Shown here piece by piece: positions 5,284-31,988 of a stretch of DNA of 32,181 nt. The translations under genes were made by a program, and so were the position numbers. The stretch is from IMG/VR virus record IMGVR_UViG_3300029286_000165, positions 1-32,181 of that record; one strand, written 5' to 3'. Each line of letters begins with the position of its first letter. The stretch's first letter is position 1. The notes under the pieces were generated by a model. It was not told the DNA's origin. It made no database searches and saw only the letters and a list, made by a program, of their open reading frames with translations. Source of the stretch: a virus.

Positions 5284-5491
5284 AGACATATTGAAAATAC
5301 CAAATAATACTACAAGTAATTATTGGTTAATTAGATTTTTCATTAAATTATTGTCTTGCCCATGTTGCGTAGCTAGCCATGTATTCTGGATTACTTATTT
5401 AATATATTTTGGTTCATTAATAGGGTTATGGTTATGTCCATTAGTTTTCTTTCTAACTTTCTTCGTTAAAAAATATACAAGTATTTTATGA
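5216..5491 (+). CDS. Small membrane protein with CPCC motif
   Basis: A 91-aa protein with about three hydrophobic segments: residues 3-23, about 38-65, and 67-85. It carries SCPCCVASHVFW at 47-58. A cysteine pair before a hydrophobic helix resembles DUF1360-like small membrane proteins ('LxCpxCxgfW'). It overlaps the end of the sigma-like gene by 68 bases from ATG 5216; an internal ATG at 5243 would shorten the overlap to 41 bases but cut into the first hydrophobic segment. It probably sits in the inner membrane; the role is unknown. Confidence 0.6.
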   Translation: MIEILIVGLMILVSIAWGVLVVEDILKIPNNTTSNYWLIRFFIKLLSCPCCVASHVFWITYLIYFGSLIGLWLCPLVFFLTFFVKKYTSIL

Positions 5492-5853
5492 ATTATGTAA
5501 ATGATAATGATTTAGTATATGAGATAATGTTATCGCAGGGCAAAGGTTTATTAACTAAGAAAGCTGAGAAAATGTTAATACTAATAGCTAAGAACGCTAT
5601 CTTAAAGAAGAGATCTTATTATCAAGAAACACAAGATTACGACGACTGTTATCAAGAAGGAGTTCTAATGTTATTATTAAATTGGAAAAAATTCAACCAT
5701 AAAAAATATTATTATGCCCTACCATACTTCACTGAAATATTTAAACGTGGACTAGCATTTGGTTATAATAAATCAGTTAATAAAAAAAATAGTGGAGTCA
5801 CACCTAGTTTTGTAAGATTAGATATTCTTGACCCAAAAAGTTCATCATTTTAA
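5488..5853 (+). CDS. Late sigma factor resembling T4 gp55
   Basis: This 121-aa protein resembles T4 gp55, the minimal late-transcription sigma factor, along its length. The N-terminus NYVNDNDLVYEI matches the gp55 'YVNNKELLxAI' start. After a helical segment comes DYDDCYQEGVLMLLLNWKKFN, like the gp55 'MIxDGIxxxIxxxxNFD' segment. YYALPYFTEIFKRGLAFGYNK corresponds to 'pxAYiTqaxfnAFxxRIKKE'. This is sigma region 2, which contacts the polymerase coiled coil and opens a TATAAATA-like -10. gp55-type factors usually work with a clamp-bound coactivator, and none is seen in this window. The comparison with gp55 is from memory. Confidence 0.65.
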   Translation: MNYVNDNDLVYEIMLSQGKGLLTKKAEKMLILIAKNAILKKRSYYQETQDYDDCYQEGVLMLLLNWKKFNHKKYYYALPYFTEIFKRGLAFGYNKSVNKKNSGVTPSFVRLDILDPKSSSF

Positions 5854-8448: not shown

Positions 8449-9582
8449 ATGACATCAATACCACCAAAACCATTACCAATATTAGACAATGGTAAAAAAC
8501 AAATACCAGTTGTTTGGGTACCTCCAATTAGAACTTATGTTGCTTCAGGAGTTACACAAGATACTGAAATATCTTACGCCTACCCAGATACTAAAATGTG
8601 GTATTTCCCTATGTCTATGAGACATTTAAGAGAAACAGGATTAATTCCAACTGGAGTAACCTATGATAATTGGTTGTATTATAAGGTTGATTTAGTAGGT
8701 GGTGTTAATACACCTGAAATAAAAGATTATTGTCACATAGAAACAAACTACCCAGATTGGAACCCTTACTTACATTATAAAATATCAGAGTATGTTACTT
8801 ATCTGGGTTATGACTATTACACATTAATAGATTTACCTGGGACTAATTTATGTCCACCAGATTACCCTTTGTGGTGGAGATGGGTAGAAAATTCAGGCAC
8901 CCCTGTTTATATGTCAGGTGGCACTGCTTTATTCCAGGATCAGTATGGTGGTTGGGATTTAGTTTCAAGTGGCGGAACAGTTTTAAGTCAAGGTAATGTA
9001 CATAGAGATGGTTTAATATGGAGAGCTGAAATGATTGGGCTACCAGTTTATTATTCTATAAGCGCAGCCGCAGTTAATACGGAACATATATTAAATAACA
9101 AATCTTTTTATGTTTATCGAAAAGAAAAATGTGACCAATATAGTAAATGGCAATTATTTTGGTTAAACCCTCACGGTGGTTATGACAATTTTACGTTTGA
9201 TAAAAAAATTGATATTGATTATAAAATAGAAAGATCAACTTATAAACGAAGAACCCCTGTTGGAGGACCTACTAGTTTTAATAGTTATTTTGGTGGGGAA
9301 AATATATTCAACACTAATGTTAGAGAAGAAATAACATTGAGGACTAGTTTATTAACACAAAAAGAAAGTCAGTTGATGATTCAATTATGTCAATCTCCAA
9401 AGGTTTATGTAATGAAAGAATATCAATATGATACGTCAGACCCAAGTAATTTATATAAGTACGCGACCCCTTATATTATAGTGACTAATGAAATTAAATA
9501 TGAACAAAAACAGAATTCAAAGGAAGTATATTATGAAGTGAAAATTAGACCATCTAACGAAAAAATCATTCAAAGTTATTAA
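8449..9582 (+). CDS. Tail / baseplate protein with a CBM5/12-like module
   Basis: A 377-aa protein. Residues about 102-147 follow the chitin-binding type 5/12 pattern: PDWNPYLHYKISEYVTYLGYDYY, a Pro-containing loop, then PLWWRWV. This corresponds to 'WxxxxxYxxGdxVxyxGxxYxxxxxxxxxxPxxxxxxW'. The C-terminal part (FWLNPHGGYDNFTF, EEITLRTSLLTQKESQLMIQLCQSPKVYVM) resembles tail proteins of Bacteroidetes phages that end in a packed beta domain. It may contact host surface sugar while part of the tail tip. The 1573-aa gene begins at the overlapping stop codon (TAATG). Confidence 0.5.
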   Translation: MTSIPPKPLPILDNGKKQIPVVWVPPIRTYVASGVTQDTEISYAYPDTKMWYFPMSMRHLRETGLIPTGVTYDNWLYYKVDLVGGVNTPEIKDYCHIETNYPDWNPYLHYKISEYVTYLGYDYYTLIDLPGTNLCPPDYPLWWRWVENSGTPVYMSGGTALFQDQYGGWDLVSSGGTVLSQGNVHRDGLIWRAEMIGLPVYYSISAAAVNTEHILNNKSFYVYRKEKCDQYSKWQLFWLNPHGGYDNFTFDKKIDIDYKIERSTYKRRTPVGGPTSFNSYFGGENIFNTNVREEITLRTSLLTQKESQLMIQLCQSPKVYVMKEYQYDTSDPSNLYKYATPYIIVTNEIKYEQKQNSKEVYYEVKIRPSNEKIIQSY

Positions 9583-12500
9583 TGAAAAGTGAATTAAAAG
9601 TTTTATATAAACCTGAGATAGTTGTACAAAATTCTAATTTCAATCAGTACACGGATTATTGGACAAGCCAGATAACGGGCACTAGTACAGATTATACGAT
9701 ATTATCTGGTTGGACTTGGACAAACGGACAGATGTGGCATGATGTTGGAAACACTTATCAAATATGGCAAGTATTAAAGCCATCTAGTATACCAGAAAGA
9801 CAATATAAAATTGAATTTCAAGCAACCATTTTAACTGGTGGTATTATGTGTAATCTATTCGGAGAGACAGGTACATATTTTACAACATCAGGCTTTCATC
9901 AAGAAATAGTAACTATCACTACTTTATCGGGTGTATTAAGAGAAGATGAAATAGTCTTTACGCCTACTATAGATTTTAATGGGTGGATTACTAATATAAG
10001 AGTATTGAGTATAATAACAAAAGTAGATGTTTTAGATTTATATGAAGATGAAGATATATCTTTAACATTCCAAGTTAGTAATGGATTATCTAATATAAGT
10101 AGTTCTTATTCAAAAACTATAAAATTACCAGGTACAAATAGCAATAATAATATTATAAATAATTTAAATGTAGAAAGTAATTTTGTAGATACAACTAATT
10201 ATGCTGATAAAAATGTTATTTTTTTTAGTAAGAAATTAGATTGTATATTCTATAACGATAGTATTGAAGTATTAAGAGGGTATTTAATAATTGAAAATTG
10301 TAATAAGATAAATGGTTTAATAGAATATGAAGGAACTATTTATTCAAATAATAGAAATTTTGCTGATGTATTAGGAGATAAATTAATACGTGGAAATTAT
10401 GACTCTAATAATGATATTAAAACATTTGGAAAATATAATCACACTTTTAATTGGACTAATATAGAAAATAGTTGGAAATTAATATATGATACATGGGATC
10501 CAAATTATGGTTATCATGTAGATGATTATATTTCTTATAACGAGATAAACTATGTTTGTATTTTTGATGTCCCAGGACCTTATTTATACCCGAATATAAA
10601 TACTACTTATTGGGCAGTAACACAGGAAAATTATTATGATACTCACACAGGATATTATTACCCATTAATTGATCATTCTGGAATACCAAAAACAACTGAT
10701 TATATTCGTTTAGAAAATTTTAAACCATCATTCTATGCTAAAGAATTATGGGACGAAATATTTAACGCAGCAGGATTTTCATATACATCAACATTTTTAA
10801 ATAGTGTATCTTTCAAAAATTTAGTTATACCACACCCAAACGATATATTTATAAATGAAAACGAATATTATGATAAATTTAACGTAGGTTTAAATTCAGG
10901 AATAACTTTAAATAATGATATTAGCGGTTATAAAAATCAAGTAATAGATTTTAATAAATATGATGGCACATATTATTATAATGATAATAATGTTTATAAT
11001 GCTGGATACTGGACAGTAACTAGTTCAGGAGTATTTAATTTAAATTTTGAGATAAAATATTCACTCTATGTTAGTGGAACAACAACAGTAGGATCACCAG
11101 GTCCAGATCCATCATCATATCAAAATGATAGATTAATAAAAATATATTTACAATTAGCCAAAAGAAGAACTAACGGAGAATATGTTGTAATATCAAACGA
11201 TACTAAAGAAATAATATTCGATCAAAATACAATTAACACTTGGTTAATAACAGAAGACGATTTTATAGGAGTCGCTGAAAGCGTTAATCTATATAAAAAT
11301 GAACAAATTTTCTGTTATTTAGGATTTGAAACATTAAACACCAACTTATATGTTTATGTTAATGGCAGTTTAGCTAGTACGACTTGGTGGCATTTTGGAT
11401 TTGATATACTTCCATCAATAGACATATCTCAAGTTAATTCATGTTTTAATAATGAATTAGTTTCAGTTAATTATTATCTAGAAGATCAAACTGTATATGG
11501 AGAAAATATGCTACCAGTTGATATGGCTCAAATAGATTATATTAAATCTATATCTAATAAATTTAATTTAATATTTACTGAAAATCCAGATAAACCTAAT
11601 GATTTTATAATAGAACCATACGATATTTTCTATACAGGAACTACATATATCGACTGGAGTGATAAAATTAATAGAGCAAAAGAGATTAGAATAGAAAGAA
11701 TACCTTATTTAATTGATAGCGCAATAGAATTTTTATTCAAAGAAGATGGAAATGACGAACTATTAAGTAAATATTTAGAAAAAACAAGCCATAATTTTGG
11801 TGATTATTTAATTAAAAACCCATATTTGAGCGAGAAAACAGAGAAAATAAACGACGTTTTTTCATCAACTATGATGGACACTATAGCGAGTTCTCCATTT
11901 ATTTCATCAAAAATATATAATTTAAACGACGAATTTTGCGATAACCTACCAACAGACTCAGATTATAATACAAGAATATTATATAGAAAGGTTGTAAATA
12001 ATACTGGTGGAGTTTCATTACCTGTATTAGGGTTTGATCCTCTTTGGGACACTGGATTAACATTTACAGACAGTGGTAATACATTATATCTATGTGGAAT
12101 GATAAGTAAGAGCAGAGTACCTTATGCTGGTTATTTAGATGATCCAATTACTCCTACATTAGATTTAAATTATGGTTCTGTTAAGTATAATTATGTAGAT
12201 GTAACGACTCAAAATAATTTAACGTGGGTTTATTGGCGTAATAAATTATCTTTATATTTAAACCCGAACTCAAAGAAGATAACTTATTCGATAAGATTAA
12301 ATATTTCTGATATTAGTACAATTGATTTTAGAAAAAAAATAATGATTGATAATAATCTTTATTTAATAAGTAAAATAGTTGATTGGAATAATGGAATAGA
12401 TTGCAGGGTTGAAATGTTCCAATTAAATACTTATGTAGATTATGGTTTTTTCACGATAGATGAATGGAAAGTTCCAAGTACTTTAACACAAACAAATGAA

Positions 12501-14303
12501 AAAAAGGTACTTGACTTATATATAGATAATATAAGTTATAGTCCTTATCAATCTGGTTCTACAGTTAGAACTTCACAAAATTCTTTTCCACAGGGAGCAA
12601 AAGGTTTAGTAATTGGAAATTCTAATAATATGAACTCTTCTGATTTTGTTGTCATAGGAGCTGGTAATGAAATTTATGGTAGTAATAATATATTATTTGG
12701 GTCAAATAAGGTTAAGGTTGATGTATTGAGTGGAGGAACTATATATCAGGAAGGTATATTGGTTAGTGGATCTACTCAAGTGACGACTGGAATAACTTAT
12801 GATACTGATGTTATGGCTATTAACGTCGACAATCAAATTATTGACGAATATGGTTTATATGTTGGTGGGTTAACTTATAGCGGTCTTACCAAAGCAATAA
12901 CAATTGACGATAGAGGTAAATTGTATTATTCGTTTGTTAGTAATAATTTAATAGGCAATATTAGTGGTGACACTACAGTTGCTTATGGGTATAAAAATTA
13001 TAATTTATCACCAGCTTCACATTCTTTAAGCGGTGGAACATGGTACAGTTTAACTGGGTTAAGTTTGACTTGGGTTACAACAGGATTCACGGAAACTGAT
13101 GATGTTGCATTTTATTCAGGGAGAACCATTAATTGTAGATTTGACGCTAAGATTGATGGGCAGATAGACGGAGCAGATTATTTAGATTTGGAAATATACG
13201 ATAGGAAAAACGATACAATTATTTGCTCAGGTATAATGGAAAAACATGATATAGGAAGTATAGGTTGTTTTGGAGTTGGTCCAGTAACTGATGGTGAATA
13301 TATATTAAGGGTGAAGTGTGATGTTGACATGACGTTAGTTCTTTATAGGGTTTATTTTTTAATAGCCACATTAGGTAGTGATGGGAAATCAGGTAGTTCT
13401 GGTACATCTGGTAATTCAGGGTCATCTGGTAGCTCTGGTTGGAGCGGTGGTAGTTCAGGAACATCAGGTAGTTCAGGCACATCAGGTAGTTCTGGTAGTT
13501 CAGGCACATCAGGTAGTTCAGGCGCAACAGGTAGTTCTGGTAGTTCAGGCACATCAGGTAGCTCTGGTAGTTCAGGCACATCAGGTAGTTCTGGTTGGAG
13601 TGGTGGTAGTTCTGGTAGCTCTGGTTGGAGCGGTGGTAGCTCAGGTACATCAGGTTGGAGTGGTGGTAGCTCAGGTACATCAGGTTGGAGTGGCGGTAGC
13701 TCAGGTACATCAGGTTGGAGTGGTGGTAGCTCAGGTACATCAGGTGCGTCAGGCAGTTCTGGTGATAGCCCAGCATATACTATTGATGAAGTATTTTATT
13801 ATGTGGAAGGTCAGACAACTCTTTATGTTCCATATATTCAAACTAGTGGTATAACTATTTTAGGATCAGGAGTACCTGTTGGTATGACATCTGGTAGTTC
13901 AGGTGTAGGAGGGTCTTCAGGTATATCTGGTATATCAGGCAGTTCAGGTAAATCAGGATCTTCTGGTATAACTGGCACTTCTGGGAGTTCAGGTTTAACA
14001 GGTTCTTCAGGATATTCTGGGTCTTCCGGTATTAATGGTTCTTTTTTAGGTACACATGGTACATCTGGTAGTTCCGGAGTTACAGGAGCCAGTGGTTCTT
14101 CTGGACTAACAAATATAATACCACCAACATACGTATACGCTACACTTTATTATAATACAGGAACAACCACATTATATACACCAAATATTTCCATTTCAAC
14201 GGCTTTAGTTGGGACTAAAGTATATTATGTGGCTGATTCATCTGGTGGTACAGTAACTAGAAAATTAACTTTCACTAATGGAATTTTAACAGGAGAAACA
14301 TAA
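9582..14303 (+). CDS. Giant tail-tip protein with collagen-like stalks
   Basis: The 1573-aa protein begins with a jelly-roll-like region (about 15-145). A core typical of Bacteroidetes phage baseplate proteins follows: LDLYEDEDISLTFQVSN, SSYSKTIKLPGTNSNNNI, VLRGYLIIENC and NRNFADVLGDKLI. A second CBM5/12-like module lies at about 303-345 (WDPNYGYHVDDYISYNEINY … YWAV). After about residue 1265 come Gly-X-Y-like tracts (GSSGTS, GWSGGS) in two blocks, encoded at about 13378-13765 and 13888-14105. Each block is followed by a short beta motif with 'YY…TTTLY'. The protein probably anchors the tail tip and presents trimeric stalks. It lies upstream of DUF1566 and LamG-like adhesin genes. Confidence 0.65.
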   Translation: MKSELKVLYKPEIVVQNSNFNQYTDYWTSQITGTSTDYTILSGWTWTNGQMWHDVGNTYQIWQVLKPSSIPERQYKIEFQATILTGGIMCNLFGETGTYFTTSGFHQEIVTITTLSGVLREDEIVFTPTIDFNGWITNIRVLSIITKVDVLDLYEDEDISLTFQVSNGLSNISSSYSKTIKLPGTNSNNNIINNLNVESNFVDTTNYADKNVIFFSKKLDCIFYNDSIEVLRGYLIIENCNKINGLIEYEGTIYSNNRNFADVLGDKLIRGNYDSNNDIKTFGKYNHTFNWTNIENSWKLIYDTWDPNYGYHVDDYISYNEINYVCIFDVPGPYLYPNINTTYWAVTQENYYDTHTGYYYPLIDHSGIPKTTDYIRLENFKPSFYAKELWDEIFNAAGFSYTSTFLNSVSFKNLVIPHPNDIFINENEYYDKFNVGLNSGITLNNDISGYKNQVIDFNKYDGTYYYNDNNVYNAGYWTVTSSGVFNLNFEIKYSLYVSGTTTVGSPGPDPSSYQNDRLIKIYLQLAKRRTNGEYVVISNDTKEIIFDQNTINTWLITEDDFIGVAESVNLYKNEQIFCYLGFETLNTNLYVYVNGSLASTTWWHFGFDILPSIDISQVNSCFNNELVSVNYYLEDQTVYGENMLPVDMAQIDYIKSISNKFNLIFTENPDKPNDFIIEPYDIFYTGTTYIDWSDKINRAKEIRIERIPYLIDSAIEFLFKEDGNDELLSKYLEKTSHNFGDYLIKNPYLSEKTEKINDVFSSTMMDTIASSPFISSKIYNLNDEFCDNLPTDSDYNTRILYRKVVNNTGGVSLPVLGFDPLWDTGLTFTDSGNTLYLCGMISKSRVPYAGYLDDPITPTLDLNYGSVKYNYVDVTTQNNLTWVYWRNKLSLYLNPNSKKITYSIRLNISDISTIDFRKKIMIDNNLYLISKIVDWNNGIDCRVEMFQLNTYVDYGFFTIDEWKVPSTLTQTNEKKVLDLYIDNISYSPYQSGSTVRTSQNSFPQGAKGLVIGNSNNMNSSDFVVIGAGNEIYGSNNILFGSNKVKVDVLSGGTIYQEGILVSGSTQVTTGITYDTDVMAINVDNQIIDEYGLYVGGLTYSGLTKAITIDDRGKLYYSFVSNNLIGNISGDTTVAYGYKNYNLSPASHSLSGGTWYSLTGLSLTWVTTGFTETDDVAFYSGRTINCRFDAKIDGQIDGADYLDLEIYDRKNDTIICSGIMEKHDIGSIGCFGVGPVTDGEYILRVKCDVDMTLVLYRVYFLIATLGSDGKSGSSGTSGNSGSSGSSGWSGGSSGTSGSSGTSGSSGSSGTSGSSGATGSSGSSGTSGSSGSSGTSGSSGWSGGSSGSSGWSGGSSGTSGWSGGSSGTSGWSGGSSGTSGWSGGSSGTSGASGSSGDSPAYTIDEVFYYVEGQTTLYVPYIQTSGITILGSGVPVGMTSGSSGVGGSSGISGISGSSGKSGSSGITGTSGSSGLTGSSGYSGSSGINGSFLGTHGTSGSSGVTGASGSSGLTNIIPPTYVYATLYYNTGTTTLYTPNISISTALVGTKVYYVADSSGGTVTRKLTFTNGILTGET
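13623..13742 (+). repeat. Four 30-bp tandem repeats in the collagen-like segment
   Basis: Units starting at 13623, 13653, 13683 and 13713 encode GWSGGSSGTS. They differ by single silent changes (AGC/AGT, GGT/GGC). The extra Gly in each unit breaks strict Gly-X-Y phase, giving a regular interruption every ten residues. Tandem units like this can change copy number by slippage. Confidence 0.85.
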
Positions 14304-14315
14304 AAATAATAAAAT

Positions 14316-14843
14316 ATGTTAATAACAAACGGAATAGGAGAAATACATTTGAACTCAAACAATCAAATTTTAAATAGAGATGTTGGTTTGGGAGATTATT
14401 ATGGAGGAGGGTACGTAGTAATTACCGGAGACACCCTTTATATAATGTCACCATATGATTGCTTTTACATGTGGGGGTGTAATGGAGTTTCAACTTATGC
14501 TACTGGAACTACAATAGGATTAGGACAGATAAATACTAATTTAATTATTGCTGCTTGCGCAGATAGCGCAGCTAAAATTTGTGAAGATTACGAACTAGCT
14601 GGCTACGCTGACTGGTTTATGCCGTGTTATTATGAGATGAAATCTGCGTTCGAAATAACTACAAAAGAGGAAAATAAGTTTAATTTTAATTTAACTACAA
14701 CCCTTCGTTATTGGACTGCGAGTGAATATAGCAGTACAGTGGTACAGTCTCTTCGGACTGATGTATGGGGAGGTCAACTTAATGTTAGTAATAAAGGTAG
14801 AGAATTACTTTTTAGACCTTTTAGAAAAACAACAATTAATTGA
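14316..14843 (+). CDS. DUF1566 / Lcl-type C-type-lectin-like adhesin
   Basis: A 175-aa protein with the DUF1566 pattern: GGGYVVITGDTLYI at 30-43, MWGCNG at 52-57, IGLGQINTNLI at 67-77, C81 … C89, AGYADWFMP at 95-103 with EMKSAF after it, RYWTASEY at 131-138 and a closing LLFRPFRK. The fold is C-type-lectin-like and is used in phage tips as a receptor-binding domain. The N-terminus (NGIGEIHLNSNNQIL) resembles short tags on other fibre genes here. A second, more canonical copy lies at 31494-31988. Confidence 0.65.
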   Translation: MLITNGIGEIHLNSNNQILNRDVGLGDYYGGGYVVITGDTLYIMSPYDCFYMWGCNGVSTYATGTTIGLGQINTNLIIAACADSAAKICEDYELAGYADWFMPCYYEMKSAFEITTKEENKFNFNLTTTLRYWTASEYSSTVVQSLRTDVWGGQLNVSNKGRELLFRPFRKTTIN

Positions 14844-24269: not shown

Positions 24270-24800
24270 CTAATTAGCTCCCTTTTCGTTTTTATATAGA
24301 TCACGTGGATCTTGATTAAATAAGTGTATCATTATATTTTTAGGTAGGAAATTATTACAAACATACCAACATGTGAAATTAGGTCTATTACCATTAAAGC
24401 TTACTCTTTTATCCATTATTATAAATTGTACATCAAATTTATTAAATATATTTATTGTTTCTATAGAATTTAACATAGTCATTGGTAACAATAAAGCGAA
24501 CGGCTTGTTATAAGTTAAACATTTTAATATTGTTTCATTTTTAATACTAAACGCAGGGTTCGTTATTATACAATCAAAATTAAAATCTGGAATATAAGTT
24601 AAGAAATCTTCTCCATTATTTATATGAGTATAATGTACAGTATGTCCTAACTCTATAAATTTTTTAACATAATTACTTTTTTTTGTATCAAATGGACACC
24701 ATATAATAGATTTTTTTTTTAAATAAGGAACGATAATTTCTACTGCATATAATGGAGTATAATATTCATCTTGTGTGCTGTGTGAAAATTTTGTTCTCAA
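24270..24800 (-). CDS. N6-adenine methyltransferase-like protein
   Basis: A 176-aa protein. DEYYTP at 11-16 and IIWCPFDTKKSNYVKKF at 32-48 are typical of phage adenine methyltransferases that start 'DexxTPxxxxxxixxyl … iwcPFd'. CIITNPAFS at 77-85 is the motif-IV equivalent (NPPF/NPPY variant, here NPAF). PFALLLPMTML follows, then NFTCWYVCNNFLP. The frame opens at TTG 24800, overlapping the preceding gene by 35 bases; no in-frame ATG fits. It may modify phage or host DNA against restriction. The Ala in NPAF could weaken activity. Confidence 0.6.
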   Translation of the reverse strand: MRTKFSHSTQDEYYTPLYAVEIIVPYLKKKSIIWCPFDTKKSNYVKKFIELGHTVHYTHINNGEDFLTYIPDFNFDCIITNPAFSIKNETILKCLTYNKPFALLLPMTMLNSIETINIFNKFDVQFIIMDKRVSFNGNRPNFTCWYVCNNFLPKNIMIHLFNQDPRDLYKNEKGAN

Positions 24801-25494
24801 ATTTAAATACTATCATTTTTTGAATTCTACTGGTGTAAGTTTTAATATCAATTAAATTAAAATTATACATCGAATCAGTTATATATTTAATTAAATTATT
24901 GTTACAATATTTATTATTAATATTTTGAACTGTTATGAAAAAATTATTTATTTTGCTTATATTGGTTAGTATTAAATCCTTTTCGATGTTTTTACAAAAA
25001 TAAGAACAAGAATCATAAAAAACTATATCAAAATCTAAATTAATTTTATTATATTTTACGCATATATTCTTGCTTTTATATTTTAATTCTTCGTAAGTGT
25101 TTAATATTTTCCGATTCTTATCAACGCATGTTATATCAATATAATTATTATCTATTAGCCATTTCACATCATTACCACAATATCCACAGAATGTTAATAT
25201 TTTACTATTTTTATTTAATTTATTAAATAACCATTCGTATATAAAATCTTTATTGAAAGATATAATTTTATCAAATTTCTCTTTTATTATTCTAGACGGT
25301 TTCCCTGTGCCGTTTGAAATATATTTATAATTATTAAAAAACCAATCTGGTAAATTTTCAATATGCCTAAATGTATTACACCTACAACTCTCATATGTAT
25401 ATCCAGTATCCGAAGATATTAATTTAATAAGATCCTTAGTTACCCATTCATCATTTTCTACAATTCTATTTTTTAAAGATTCATTTATAGTCAT
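24766..25494 (-). CDS. SAM-dependent methyltransferase-like protein
   Basis: A 242-aa protein. About 90 residues of basic/aromatic N-terminal region (ENDEWVTKDLIKLISSDTGY … GKPSRIIKEKF) with a possible DNA-binding helix pair precede a Rossmann-like part. This part has KILTFCGYCGNDVKWLI (motif I), ITCVDKNRKIL (motif II, acidic end) and FDIVFYDSC (motif IV position). The glycine pattern of motif I is irregular. The ATG at 25494 lies only four bases from a TATCTTTG promoter box, so the mRNA may be leaderless. The gene overlaps the adenine methyltransferase-like gene, forming a likely pair. Confidence 0.5.
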   Translation of the reverse strand: MTINESLKNRIVENDEWVTKDLIKLISSDTGYTYESCRCNTFRHIENLPDWFFNNYKYISNGTGKPSRIIKEKFDKIISFNKDFIYEWLFNKLNKNSKILTFCGYCGNDVKWLIDNNYIDITCVDKNRKILNTYEELKYKSKNICVKYNKINLDFDIVFYDSCSYFCKNIEKDLILTNISKINNFFITVQNINNKYCNNNLIKYITDSMYNFNLIDIKTYTSRIQKMIVFKFENKIFTQHTR

Positions 25495-25595: not shown

Positions 25596-26690
25596 ATGGA
25601 GATGAACAATTATTCCACAAAGATATCTAGCAAACCACTTTCAATAAATTTTAGACAACAAGAAATACCAATATTCAAAGAAGTATGGAGTAATACTTAT
25701 AGATATTTTTTGGCTGGCGAACAAAATAAATGGTTTCAGGATTTATTAGATTTATATTATGGCTCAGCAATACATGCTGCCATTATAAATACATTAAAAC
25801 AAAAGATTACAAAAGGTTTTGAGAGTGATGATATATATGGGAAAATAACCTTGGACTATCTTATTTTTGGTGGTTTCGCGATAGAAGTTATATGGAATGT
25901 TTCTCATACATCTATTGTTAAAATTAATCATTTAGATTTTTCTAAAGTTAGAAGTGGAAAGCCAGATGATCAAGATAAAGTTCTATTCTATTATTATTCA
26001 AATGACTGGTTAAAATATTCAAATAGAGAAATACAAACATTACAAGGGTACAATGAAAACACACAATTCGATGATCATCAAATTTATTATTATAAGAGGT
26101 ATAACCCAGGAGAAGATGTTTACCCAAAGCCATATTACTTTAGTTCCTTAAAATGGATTGTAACAGATATTGAGCTTGAAAATTATTATGCCAACCTTGT
26201 TGCTAATAATTTCGTAGCCAATACATTAATTTCAGTTAACTCATATTACGATGAAGATAAACAAATGGAATTCGAAAAAGCTTTAAAACGCAATTTTACT
26301 GGTTCTGATAATGCTGGTAAGATGTTAGTAATGTATTCAGAAGATAAAGAACACGCTCCAACACTTGAGAAATTTAATAATGACCAAGATGACACAAGAT
26401 ATAAATTTATAAGCGAACAAATAACTGGTAATATATCAGTTGGTCATCAATTACCAGTTCAACTTTTGGGGATCCTTGTTCCAGGCAAGCTAGGCAATTC
26501 TACTGAAATACCAACCTTTGAAGCAATCTATGATGAAACAGTGGTTAAACCAACAAGAAGAGAAATTATAACTGGAATACAACCAATATATGAAAAGATG
26601 TTATCTAAAACAATAATTCCTACTTTAGAAATTCCAGTTAAACAAACATTACCAATACCAATTACAGAAAAAATAATACCAGCCGTATGA
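25596..26690 (+). CDS. Portal protein
   Basis: A 364-aa protein with the pattern of PBSX/HK97-type portals: LDLYYGSAIHAAIINTLKQKI, then YLIFGGFAIEVIWN, YYYKRYNPGEDVYPKPYYFSSLKWI, LVANNFVANTLISVNS, and GNISVGHQLPVQLLGI … GNSTEIPTFEAIYDETVV. Twelve copies would form the DNA entry ring at one vertex. The length is shorter than many portals. ATG 25596 is used; the ATG at 25591 is out of frame and soon stops. Here the portal lies 21 kb downstream of the terminase and after the capsid gene. Confidence 0.75.
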   Translation: MEMNNYSTKISSKPLSINFRQQEIPIFKEVWSNTYRYFLAGEQNKWFQDLLDLYYGSAIHAAIINTLKQKITKGFESDDIYGKITLDYLIFGGFAIEVIWNVSHTSIVKINHLDFSKVRSGKPDDQDKVLFYYYSNDWLKYSNREIQTLQGYNENTQFDDHQIYYYKRYNPGEDVYPKPYYFSSLKWIVTDIELENYYANLVANNFVANTLISVNSYYDEDKQMEFEKALKRNFTGSDNAGKMLVMYSEDKEHAPTLEKFNNDQDDTRYKFISEQITGNISVGHQLPVQLLGILVPGKLGNSTEIPTFEAIYDETVVKPTRREIITGIQPIYEKMLSKTIIPTLEIPVKQTLPIPITEKIIPAV

Positions 26691-27238
26691 GCACATATAT
26701 AATGACTTCAACGGAAGTTAAAACATTGATACCCCAAATAAATAGTACTATAGAAGAAGTATTAATTAACTCTACGATGCTATTTACACAAGACACTTTA
26801 ATTAAAAATTCTATAGGCCAGCAATGGTATGAAGAAATTATTTTACAAATATCTGGTGGAACAACTACGGCTGAGAATTTAATTATTATAAATAATTATC
26901 TGAAATCTATATTGGCTTTTGGAACATGGCAAAATTTAATTATAAATCTGTCACTTCAAACCAACGATGCGGGTTTAAGAATTAAATTATCTGAACATAG
27001 TCAAGCAGCAGAAAGCAAAGATTTATCTTTTATGAGAGATTATATACAAGATTTTATAGATTCTAAAAGGAAAGAAATGTATAGATATATTAAAAATAAT
27101 CAATCGTCATATACGTTATATTATAATGATAAGTATGGCGATAAACCTATAAATAATATATATGATTTTAAGATAGGCGGTGTGCCAAGATTAAATAATA
27201 ATTTGCATATGAATAGGAATTATAATAACAAAGTGTAA
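26687..27238 (+). CDS. Head-tail adaptor-like protein (DUF6712-like)
   Basis: A 183-aa helical protein. It has an N-terminal segment (TSTEVKTLIPQINSTIEEVLI), then DTLIKNSIGQQWYEEII, ENLIIINNYLKSILAFGTW, NDAGLRIKLSEHSQAAESKDLSFMRDY and a Tyr/Lys-rich RKEMYRYIKNN. The order fits adaptor proteins that follow the portal in Bacteroidetes phages. It overlaps the portal stop by four bases (GTATGAG), showing tight coupling. It probably forms a ring beneath the portal; function by position and pattern only. Confidence 0.5.
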   Translation: MSTYIMTSTEVKTLIPQINSTIEEVLINSTMLFTQDTLIKNSIGQQWYEEIILQISGGTTTAENLIIINNYLKSILAFGTWQNLIINLSLQTNDAGLRIKLSEHSQAAESKDLSFMRDYIQDFIDSKRKEMYRYIKNNQSSYTLYYNDKYGDKPINNIYDFKIGGVPRLNNNLHMNRNYNNKV

Positions 27239-27256
27239 AAATAAATATAATAAATT

Positions 27257-27613
27257 ATGATTGGGACTATACTAACAGATGAAATTGTGCTTGGAGTAAT
27301 AGGTTCGTTGATAACATTACTTATTGGCGTGGTTGGTTTTTTTATAAACAGATGGATGAATCAAACTGACGATAGAGAAAATCGCAGCATAGTATTAATA
27401 GAAAAAACTAATGATACACTTTGTAATTTAGATACTACTATGGACAAAATAAATACTAATCTATTAACATATCAAGCGACTATGGACGAAACAGTTAAAA
27501 ATGTAAAAGAAAAATTAAATTGTGTAGATAAAACTATGGTTGATCATCGTTCAGATTTAAGAGATCATGAAGTGAGAATTGTTGTACTGGAAAAAACAAA
27601 TGGTAAAAAATGA
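27257..27613 (+). CDS. Membrane-anchored coiled-coil protein (holin / XhlA-like)
   Basis: A 118-aa protein with one hydrophobic helix at about 10-32 (VLGVIGSLITLLIGVVGFFI), followed by a polar helical tail with heptad-like repeats (NDTLCNLDTTMDKINTNLL … DHRSDLRDHEVRIVVLE). The layout resembles phage XhlA-like or holin-associated proteins that have a single membrane helix and coiled coil. It is followed by a receiver-domain gene whose ATG overlaps its stop. It may act in lysis or at the membrane during infection; the exact role is not known. Confidence 0.45.
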   Translation: MIGTILTDEIVLGVIGSLITLLIGVVGFFINRWMNQTDDRENRSIVLIEKTNDTLCNLDTTMDKINTNLLTYQATMDETVKNVKEKLNCVDKTMVDHRSDLRDHEVRIVVLEKTNGKK

Positions 27614-27948
27614 ATTTACTTATCGTAGATGATGATATTAACTATATTAATTTATTTAGAGAATGGTTATATCAAACAGAATATAATTTTAATGTAGTTA
27701 ACAATGGGTTTGAATGTATTAATTTTTTACAAAATCATAGATATGACTATGTTATCATAGATATTTTTATGCCAGAAATGAGCGGCTTGAAATTATATGA
27801 GTTTGTAGAAAGTAATTTCAATGTTAATTTAGTAATAATGTCTAGTTCTAGAGATTACATTAATTATAAATTACCACATATTACAAATAAATTTATTAAG
27901 CCAACTACATTTGAAGAATTTAATGATATGATGGCTAAATTACAATAA
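27610..27948 (+). CDS. CheY-like response regulator receiver protein
   Basis: A 112-aa stand-alone receiver domain. Acidic residues D7/D8 lie in LLIVDDDINY. The phospho-acceptor Asp is D51 in DYVIIDIFMPEMSG. The Ser/Thr position lies in LVIMSSSRD (about S79), and the conserved Lys is K97 in KFIKPTT. All key receiver residues are therefore present, so phosphorylation is plausible. No output domain is attached and no histidine kinase is in the window. It overlaps the stop of the membrane coiled-coil gene by four bases (AAATGA), suggesting joint translation. It may intercept host signalling or sense the membrane state through its partner. Confidence 0.8.
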   Translation: MNLLIVDDDINYINLFREWLYQTEYNFNVVNNGFECINFLQNHRYDYVIIDIFMPEMSGLKLYEFVESNFNVNLVIMSSSRDYINYKLPHITNKFIKPTTFEEFNDMMAKLQ

Positions 27949-27961
27949 AATAACCAATAAC

Positions 27962-30040
27962 ATGACTTATACTACATTATTACAATATTTAAAAAATTGG
28001 ATCGAAACTTCTACTATAAACGGTAAATCTGTTTATTGTCAAGTTTTACTTGAAGACGAAATTGAGTTGAACCCATTGACTACTTACCCAGCAGCTTTCA
28101 TATGTCCAATTCCATTTACAATGACTTCTAGTTATATGAATAAATTTTCAGTTAGAATATATTTAGCTAATGGTACTACATATGCGCCTAATCACTCTAC
28201 TGGGACTCAATTGACTAATAGAATGAATGTATTCAACGAAATGATTGTTTATGCTGAAGGTTTGGTTAAATCATTGCCTGATGATATGAATGAGAATTTC
28301 CCAATAACATTCACACCAGTATTATTGTGGGACGGTAATGTAGATGGAATTTATTTTGATTTAAGTATTGATACTGGGATATTATGCAATGAAGTTATAT
28401 TAAGTGGAATTACTGGATCTACATGGGTTATAATAAATGGAACTTCAGGCACATCAGGTAGAGATGGAACTTCTGGTAAAAATGGGTCATCTGGGAAAGA
28501 TGGAACATCTGGTGTTAGTGGGTCATCTGGGAAAGATGGACCTACAGGACAAGGAGGAACTAGTGGCATAAATGGAACTTCAGGCAAATCAGGTACATCT
28601 GGTACATCTAGTGATGGGACTTCTGGTAAATCTGGTTCTTCAGGTATTAGTGGAACATCTGGTGAATCAGGTACATCAGGTACATCAAGTGATGGAACAT
28701 CTGGTTCTTCTGGTAAAGATGGTGGTATTGGAACATCTGGTGAATCAGGAACATCTGGTGAATCTGGCACATCAGGGACATCAAGCGATGGAACTTCTGG
28801 TTCTTCTGGTAAAGATGGACCTATTGGACCGTATGGGGGTGGAGGATCATCAGGAACATCAGGTGTAAGTGGGTCTTCAGGAACATCAGGTGAATCTGGG
28901 ACTTCAGGTATTAATGGAGCTGATGGAACATCAGGTATTAGTGGATCTTCAGGAACATCTGGAGAATCAGGAGAATCAGGAACATCAGGTATTAATGGAG
29001 TTGATGGGACTTCAGGTATTAGTGGATCTTCAGGAACATCAGGTGAATCTGGGACTTCAGGTATTAATGGAGCTGATGGAACATCAGGTATTAGTGGATC
29101 TTCAGGAACATCGGGAGAATCAGGAGAATCAGGAACATCAGGTATTAATGGAGTTGATGGGACTTCAGGTATTAGTGGATCTTCAGGAACATCAGGTATT
29201 AATGGAGTTGATGGAACTTCTGGTGAATCTGGTTCTTCAGGAACATCAGGTGAATCTGGGACTTCAGGTATTAATGGAGCTGATGGAACATCAGGTATTA
29301 GTGGATCTTCAGGAACATCTGGAGAATCAGGAGAATCAGGAACATCAGGTATTAATGGAGTTGATGGGACTTCAGGTATTAGTGGATCTTCAGGAACATC
29401 AGGTGAATCTGGGACTTCAGGTATTAATGGAGCTGATGGAACATCAGGTATTAGTGGATCTTCAGGAACATCGGGAGAATCAGGAGAATCAGGAACATCA
29501 GGTATTAATGGAGTTGATGGGACTTCAGGTATTAGTGGATCTTCAGGAACATCAGGTATTAATGGAGTTGATGGAACTTCTGGTGAATCTGGTTCTTCAG
29601 GAGCAACAGGTAGTTCAGGTTTATCTAATTTATATACATACACACCAACTTTATATTATAGTGGTACTACTTTATATTCTCCAAATGTTAATTTAACTTC
29701 TAATGGTTTAGTTGGTATAATTGAAACAATAGATTTTGAATTTAGAGGATTGGCTACAGCGACAGGTGAAACATTTATTCTTGATTTATCTGCTGAATAT
29801 CCTTATACTATTAATAGCGTGAAATTACAAGGTGATACTGGTACAGGAACAACTACATTCTATATTAATACTACTGCAATAACTGGTTTAACTGGTAAAA
29901 CATTTATATCAGCTATACAAACACATACAGCTACAGGCGCTAATAGTGTAGTGGCTACTAATCAAGTTAAATTTATTATAACAGGATTATCAAGTTCTCC
30001 AACATTGGTTAGAGGAAAATTAAAAGTAACTAGAACATAA
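27962..30040 (+). CDS. Tail-terminator-like domain fused to a collagen-like stalk
   Basis: The 692-aa protein has an N-terminal domain (about 1-155) resembling small tail-terminator or completion proteins: TYPAAFICPIPF, FSVRIYLANGTTY, LTNRMNVFNEMIVYAEGLVK, ITFTPVLLWDGNVDGIYFDLSI. About 395 residues of Gly-X-Y-like repeats follow (GTSGINGADGTSGISGSSG units), then a C-terminal beta domain (YTPTLYYSGTTLYSPNV … KLKVTRT). It appears to mount a fibrous stalk on a neck or tail-completion ring. The fusion is unusual. The first 155 residues match the position where a tail-terminator gene would stand. Confidence 0.55.
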   Translation: MTYTTLLQYLKNWIETSTINGKSVYCQVLLEDEIELNPLTTYPAAFICPIPFTMTSSYMNKFSVRIYLANGTTYAPNHSTGTQLTNRMNVFNEMIVYAEGLVKSLPDDMNENFPITFTPVLLWDGNVDGIYFDLSIDTGILCNEVILSGITGSTWVIINGTSGTSGRDGTSGKNGSSGKDGTSGVSGSSGKDGPTGQGGTSGINGTSGKSGTSGTSSDGTSGKSGSSGISGTSGESGTSGTSSDGTSGSSGKDGGIGTSGESGTSGESGTSGTSSDGTSGSSGKDGPIGPYGGGGSSGTSGVSGSSGTSGESGTSGINGADGTSGISGSSGTSGESGESGTSGINGVDGTSGISGSSGTSGESGTSGINGADGTSGISGSSGTSGESGESGTSGINGVDGTSGISGSSGTSGINGVDGTSGESGSSGTSGESGTSGINGADGTSGISGSSGTSGESGESGTSGINGVDGTSGISGSSGTSGESGTSGINGADGTSGISGSSGTSGESGESGTSGINGVDGTSGISGSSGTSGINGVDGTSGESGSSGATGSSGLSNLYTYTPTLYYSGTTLYSPNVNLTSNGLVGIIETIDFEFRGLATATGETFILDLSAEYPYTINSVKLQGDTGTGTTTFYINTTAITGLTGKTFISAIQTHTATGANSVVATNQVKFIITGLSSSPTLVRGKLKVTRT
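28874..29602 (+). repeat. 369-bp perfect direct repeat in the collagen-like region
   Basis: Bases 28874-29242 equal 29234-29602 (360-bp period with a 9-bp overlap). Synonymous positions are also identical. Inside each copy are 153-base sub-repeats (about 51 codons). The perfect identity points to a recent duplication or to active homogenisation, and the copy number may be uncertain in an assembly. Confidence 0.85.
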
Positions 30041-31493: not shown

Positions 31494-31988
31494 ATGGCAA
31501 GTAGAAGAATTTTATATTATACTAATCCATTAAAAATAGGAGACACTTATTTAGGTGGTAAAATAGCTTATTTAGACGGTACCGGTATTCACGGATTTAT
31601 AGCCCAAACATCAGATTTAACATCTATAGAAGAGTGGGGATGCAGAGGAACAGGTATTCCAGGAGCTGATGGTATAAATATAGGAACTGGTAAACAAAAT
31701 ACAACAGATATATGTAATGGGTGTGCTGGTGCTCAAGCATCTAGGAGTTGTGTTAGTTCTACTGTTGGTGGCTATAATGACTGGTTTCTACCAAGTAAAA
31801 ATGAAATGAATGAATTATATAAAAATAGGGTTATTTTAGGAGGGTTTGTTACGTACGATGGGTATTACTATTGGTGTTCATCAGAATATGATGATTATTC
31901 AGCTTGGTATTTTCATATGTATGGTAATAATTGGTCTTACGGAAGCAAATACGCTCATCTGGGTGTTAGAGCTATTAGAAATTTTTAA
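31494..31988 (+). CDS. DUF1566 / Lcl-type adhesin, canonical form
   Basis: A 164-aa protein matching the family closely: YLGGKIAYLDGTGIHGFIAQ (19-38), EEWGCRGTGI (47-56), IGTGKQNTTDIC (63-74), a Cys-rich stretch (74-86), GGYNDWFLPSKNEMNELY (92-109), YYWCSSEYDDYSAWYFHMYG (125-144) and closing VRAIRNF (158-164). The fold is C-type-lectin-like and used as a ligand-binding tip. The C-terminal 'YWxSSE…AW…VRAxR' part is the segment that is varied in related proteins of diversity-generating systems. No such system is seen here. Confidence 0.75.
   Translation: MASRRILYYTNPLKIGDTYLGGKIAYLDGTGIHGFIAQTSDLTSIEEWGCRGTGIPGADGINIGTGKQNTTDICNGCAGAQASRSCVSSTVGGYNDWFLPSKNEMNELYKNRVILGGFVTYDGYYYWCSSEYDDYSAWYFHMYGNNWSYGSKYAHLGVRAIRNF

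Follow-up and report, generated by a model that had tools for sequence, protein, structure and literature searches.

Stand-alone receivers paired with small membrane coil proteins in phage late regions suggest a phosphorylation switch at the membrane, perhaps timing host lysis

What is the role of a CheY-like receiver domain encoded in the late region of a phage, directly behind a gene for a small membrane protein? The question is raised by an IMG/VR virus record of 32,181 bases (the window, analysed here as the whole record), which is classed as linear and is possibly a fragment. A first-pass annotation of this DNA placed a receiver in a structural operon and proposed that it could siphon phosphate from a host kinase or link membrane state to lysis or adhesion timing. 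The timing of lysis is a key life-history trait of phages, for which the accumulation of holin and the action of antiholins are the usual explanation, and phage receivers as such are already known (PHROG 731 and others). The evidence assembled here points to a switch, worked by phosphorylation at the membrane, that some phages may employ in late infection and that perhaps times the lysis of the host.

Table 1. Features at and around the receiver locus (positions in the window).
Feature	Position	Strand	Description	Basis
Portal gene	25596-26690		Upstream of the DUF6712 gene	Pfam and PHROGs
DUF6712 gene	26687-27238	+	Upstream flank	Pfam and PHROGs
Small membrane partner	27257-27613	+	118 aa; N-terminal TM (10-30); the remaining 88 aa predicted to form a cytoplasmic helix	Hydropathy, positive-inside rule, AlphaFold
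ATGA stop/start overlap	27610-27613	+	Overlap of partner and receiver genes	Sequence
Stand-alone receiver domain	27610-27948	+	112 aa	PF00072, modelled fold, PDB matches, invariant residues
Collagen-like repeat (fibre-type) gene	27962-30040	+	Downstream flank	ORF, repeat sequence

The open reading frame was recovered at the position and in the frame first described (Table 1), and its identification as a complete receiver domain with canonical fold and active site is well supported, D51 being its putative phosphorylation site. A Pfam profile search matched PF00072 at 53.6 bits (E 2.9e-14; cut-off 30.2), and a record-wide search found exactly one receiver in the window. The AlphaFold model (pLDDT 94.5) has the canonical (beta-alpha)5 fold, and its PDB matches include solved receivers such as TrrA (TM-score 0.83) and PorX, the latter being 26% identical to the window receiver and showing no special similarity to it over other receivers. 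Alignment places the catalytic positions at D7, D8, D51, S78 and K97, with P98 following the lysine; the aspartates and the lysine are thus as annotated, whereas the conserved Ser/Thr position, previously given as Ser79, falls at S78 within a stretch where residues 78-80 are all Ser. The protein ends with alpha5 and has no output domain, as is characteristic of a single-domain response regulator. In most receivers alpha4 is part of the output face, and a short alpha4 (residues 81-87) is the sole unusual structural trait of the window receiver.

The stop codon (TGA) of the preceding gene overlaps the ATG of the receiver, so that the two genes may be translationally coupled. The product of the preceding gene was annotated as a membrane coiled-coil protein, and this description holds, with one TM segment and, in a single-sequence AlphaFold model (mean pLDDT 78.5), one continuous helix from residue 3 to 116. 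By hydropathy and the positive-inside rule the coil was predicted to be cytoplasmic in all of the partner proteins considered here (11/11), including the reversed ones of the PB15 type, and Rz spanins taken as controls from the same cassettes gave the opposite topology prediction. In the window pair, the receiver is immediately preceded by a small TM gene whose coil is predicted to be cytoplasmic. Homologue searches with the membrane protein returned two weak, coil-only matches in viral contigs and none in phages. Among candidate identities, an i-spanin (Rz-like protein) was rejected for the window partner as its C-side is predicted to be cytoplasmic and not periplasmic (N-in/C-out), an XhlA/hemolysin-like protein was rejected on topology and on finding no match to phrog_937 or related profiles, and phrog_1009 was rejected as the family since this profile mostly matches coils inside larger proteins.

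On this phage contig of Bacteroidota type the pair is flanked by portal/neck genes on one side and tail-fibre genes on the other, and the structural operon of the first-pass annotation is borne out by the portal and DUF6712 genes upstream and the collagen-like fibre gene downstream. The relatives of the window portal among genomes are two Bacteroidetes MAGs, and a Bacteroidota host is therefore likely. In two portal relatives (L002 and L003, 57% identical), the DUF6712 gene is directly followed by a fibre-type gene with no pair, and none of 24 records related to the window carries the receiver; we therefore regard the receiver and its partner as an accessory cassette. Absence from the nearest relatives would also be expected of passing cargo, that is, a recently acquired host gene with no function for the phage, and searches of viral and genome contigs found no close homologue of the receiver. 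We consider this very improbable, because the frame and active site are intact, the gene overlaps that of its partner, its GC3 (0.177) is like that of the remainder of the contig, the best Bacteroidota receivers in the sample searched are only ~35% identical, and the pair recurs elsewhere. More distant relatives carry small TM genes after the DUF6712 gene and one of them (L010) also carries an Amidase_2 endolysin there; the window itself yielded neither an endolysin nor a holin to the searches, and a link to lysis for the window itself is accordingly indirect.

Stand-alone receivers directly behind a small TM/coil gene were found in independent marine phages of Alteromonas, comprising sipho-, myo-, podo- and schitoviruses. 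The TM-coil gene immediately precedes the receiver in R9Y1, R8W, H4/4, PB15, XX1924, V22, A5 and PT11-V19, and the 4-nt ATGA overlap of the window is present in R9Y1, R8W, H4/4, XX1924 and, with a corrected start, PB15. The annotated start of the PB15 receiver (L060:3989-4387) is too late, and an in-frame upstream ATG (L060:3989) restores both the full acidic motif and the overlap. Lysis genes adjoin the pair in R9Y1, R8W, PB15/XX1924, V22 and A5. In R9Y1, gp13 (TM plus coil) overlaps gp12 (the receiver), which in turn overlaps a GH108 lysozyme gene, and R8W and H4/4 (Autographiviridae) have the same order behind a class II holin. The partner in PB15 and XX1924 is a coil-TM protein, with an XhlA/hemolysin-like profile match in XX1924; the pair is followed by an M15 peptidase gene in PB15 and by a DUF5675 gene in XX1924, which also has a 3TM holin. 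Rz-like and holin-like genes come after the pair in the myovirus V22 and the schitovirus A5, with an annotated endolysin in A5, and in IMG/VR relatives (L074-L077) a lipoprotein-like, Rz1-like frame overlaps the end of the Rz gene. These neighbours lend positional support to the earlier proposal of a link between membrane state and lysis; its alternative, adhesion timing, has no specific support beyond the adjacent fibre genes. A conserved neighbourhood was one of the two checks set by the first-pass annotation, and its proposal withstood both: the membrane-protein neighbour recurs in unrelated phages, though not in the nearest relatives of the window, and the active-site residues are conserved as described below. 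A viral contig (L071:3974-5134) has a stand-alone receiver a short distance ahead of a GH108-like lysozyme ORF, with no TM-coil gene in front of the receiver, and no further members of the PB15 branch were found in viral contigs. Many nominally phage receiver matches were left out, since they appear to be bacterial sequence from unverified records; of those inspected, most sit among bacterial genes (kinases, chemotaxis, transporter).

Conservation of D51 and K97 had been set beforehand as a check on the receiver, and the DD/D/S/K active site proved invariant in nine aligned phage receivers, which share only 16-29% identity with that of the window, PT11-V19 apart. In PT11-V19, gp10 (L059:3998-4450) is a degenerate receiver that lacks the phospho-Asp and scores slightly under the Pfam cut-off, yet is still coupled to a TM-coil gene. 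Phosphorylation is thus not always needed, and this retention of the pair is what a phosphorylation-independent scaffold or virion-associated factor, with the receiver fold serving only as an adaptor, would predict; given the invariance in all nine of the other receivers, we think such a role quite improbable.

The pairing was compared with the background of small TM genes. Across five tabulated genomes (V22 covered in part only), a small TM gene lies upstream in 18 of 246 same-strand pairs, and the 4-nt overlap is seen in 7/246, a figure that is overstated as the seven include the receiver pairs themselves; the overlap is present in all four phages counted there (window, R9Y1, R8W and XX1924). 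In a Bacteroidota control, none of 14 stand-alone receivers lies behind a convincing small TM gene, one spurious-looking 85-aa frame being discounted. The p-values are indicative only, because the phages do not all count as independent cases (the pairs of R9Y1 and R8W are homologous, with receivers 47% identical) and the 5/6 figure for phages uses a hydropathy cut-off that the weaker V22 and A5 segments fail. Most of the recurrences come from phages that infect a single host genus, Alteromonas.

Several of these proteins have been described under other labels, and the earlier view that reports of receivers in the late regions of phages are rare holds only in part, as several Alteromonas phages carry one there. 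The CheY-like V22 gp30 and A5 gp11 are filed as class II AMGs in a host-recognition module (PMC7289586, PMC10579305). Like the window protein, they are stand-alone receivers directly after a TM/coil gene in the late region, with no kinase annotated or found, but they are ~30 aa longer at the C terminus, are separated from the partner by a 2-nt or 1-nt gap instead of an overlap, and are followed by spanin, holin and endolysin genes. The V22 protein (ORF30, L064:3992-4441, 149 aa) is annotated as a hybrid histidine kinase and is too short for extra domains; R8W gp48 (L057:4001-4462, 153 aa) is labelled PhoB (PMC8228385), a DNA-binding annotation for which it is likewise too short. R8W gp48, H4/4 gp44 and R9Y1 gp12 share with the window the ATGA overlap and the intact DD/D/S/K residues and differ in their length (150-153 aa) and in the adjoining holin or lysozyme genes, while the 'response regulators' of PB15 and XX1924 share the overlap and late position and differ in a partner that is XhlA/hemolysin-like and has a C-terminal TM. 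Cellular single-domain response regulators (CheY, Spo0F, DivK) and the receiver of PorX, which acts on a membrane protein, have the same fold and active site; the window receiver differs from them in being phage-encoded with its own membrane partner and in its shortened alpha4. The cREC domains of jumbo phages are also receiver-like and outside two-component systems, yet they are divergent and linked to NAD/ADP-ribose enzymes, whereas the window receiver is of the canonical kind and goes with a membrane coil (PMC7824862). No paper placing a receiver in a lysis cassette was found in the open full-text literature, a search that largely leaves subscription papers uncovered. What is new here is the membrane-coil pairing across phage groups, its position in lysis cassettes and its occurrence in a Bacteroidota-type phage.

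The two overlapping genes can be read as one late module, which is well supported as such along with the chemistry of its receiver: a protein with one TM and a long coil, predicted to be cytoplasmic, together with an orphan receiver of the CheY type. Each of ten records (the window, possibly incomplete, and nine comparison records) has exactly one receiver and none has a HATPase_c kinase ATPase domain, so that the window lacks the cognate kinase of a complete two-component system and phosphate would have to be supplied by a histidine kinase of the host or by a small donor such as acetyl phosphate. As a cytoplasmic receiver and a membrane-anchored coil predicted to be cytoplasmic are encoded by overlapping genes, docking of one on the other is suggested. 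The phosphorylated and unphosphorylated receiver would bind the coil differently, coupling the physiological state of the host to a late membrane event, most likely holin or anchor behaviour and hence the timing of lysis. A cellular precedent favours this reading, together with the topology and the missing kinase: the receiver of PorX, either with its native Asp54 or as D54E, binds GldL, a membrane motor protein, and the D54A form does not (PMC10951265). The same precedent, and the presence of PorX among the structural matches, could instead point to a mimic of a host receiver acting on a host machine: in Bacteroidota, like PorX, on GldL of the gliding/type IX secretion motor, or in Alteromonas, like CheY, on the flagellar switch. 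We judge such mimicry improbable, since the window receiver is not specially PorX-like, the phage brings its own membrane partner, and Alteromonas phages with the same arrangement would need another target.

A phosphate sink or decoy, the other proposal of the first-pass annotation, would drain or occupy host histidine kinases and so blunt or reprogram the host response, the partner merely positioning the receiver beside membrane kinases. An intact active site with neither an output domain nor a phage kinase is consistent with this, and the phage protein PIT4 is described as altering host two-component systems (PMC10714779). It leaves unexplained the recurrent, dedicated cytoplasmic membrane partner and the placement among late lysis genes, when little time is left to change host expression, and we hold it to be rather unlikely. 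Our tentative preference, at slightly under an even chance, is for an orphan phospho-switch that docks on its own membrane anchor and tunes a late membrane event, with lysis timing as the likeliest output. Against it count the lack of an identified lysis gene in the window, the absence of the pair in its nearest relatives, the degenerate receiver retained in the PT11-V19 pair, the concentration of the recurrences in one host genus, and the partners, the window and Alteromonas proteins having no detectable sequence homology (by tblastn the window partner could not be aligned with those of R8W, H4/4 and R9Y1). A broader proposal is that a lysis or membrane switch gated by phosphorylation has arisen in several unrelated phage groups, that of the window among them, in which an orphan receiver docked on its own membrane coil would read the state of host kinases or acetyl phosphate and so set the moment of lysis; we regard this as less likely than not. 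If true, a phospho-receiver in a lysis cassette would provide phages with a direct route to read host signalling, and the claim is immediately testable in the isolated Alteromonas phages R9Y1, R8W, V22 and A5, all of which have the pair. Records and papers that use the labels 'PhoB', 'hybrid histidine kinase' or 'host-recognition module AMG' for proteins that are receiver-only and lie among lysis genes would also be corrected.

Several minor features of the window were also observed. Two overlapping minus-strand genes (24270-25494) break the plus-strand late operon between the capsid-region and portal genes, and one (24270-24800), with a match to part of a DNA methyltransferase family (phrog_799), may stem from a methyltransferase gene that has been split or has decayed. 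Long collagen-like G-T-S-G-S-S-G repeats occur in two plus-strand tail or fibre genes (9582-14303 and 27962-30040) and create long spurious ORFs in other frames or on the other strand, for example at 28351-29643 (minus). After the repeat/fibre genes lie plus-strand genes for two proteins with Lcl_C-type C-terminal domains (14316-14843 and 31494-31988), and near the terminase genes a small plus-strand protein (5488-5853) weakly resembles sigma-70 region 2 (E 8e-4, below the cut-off).
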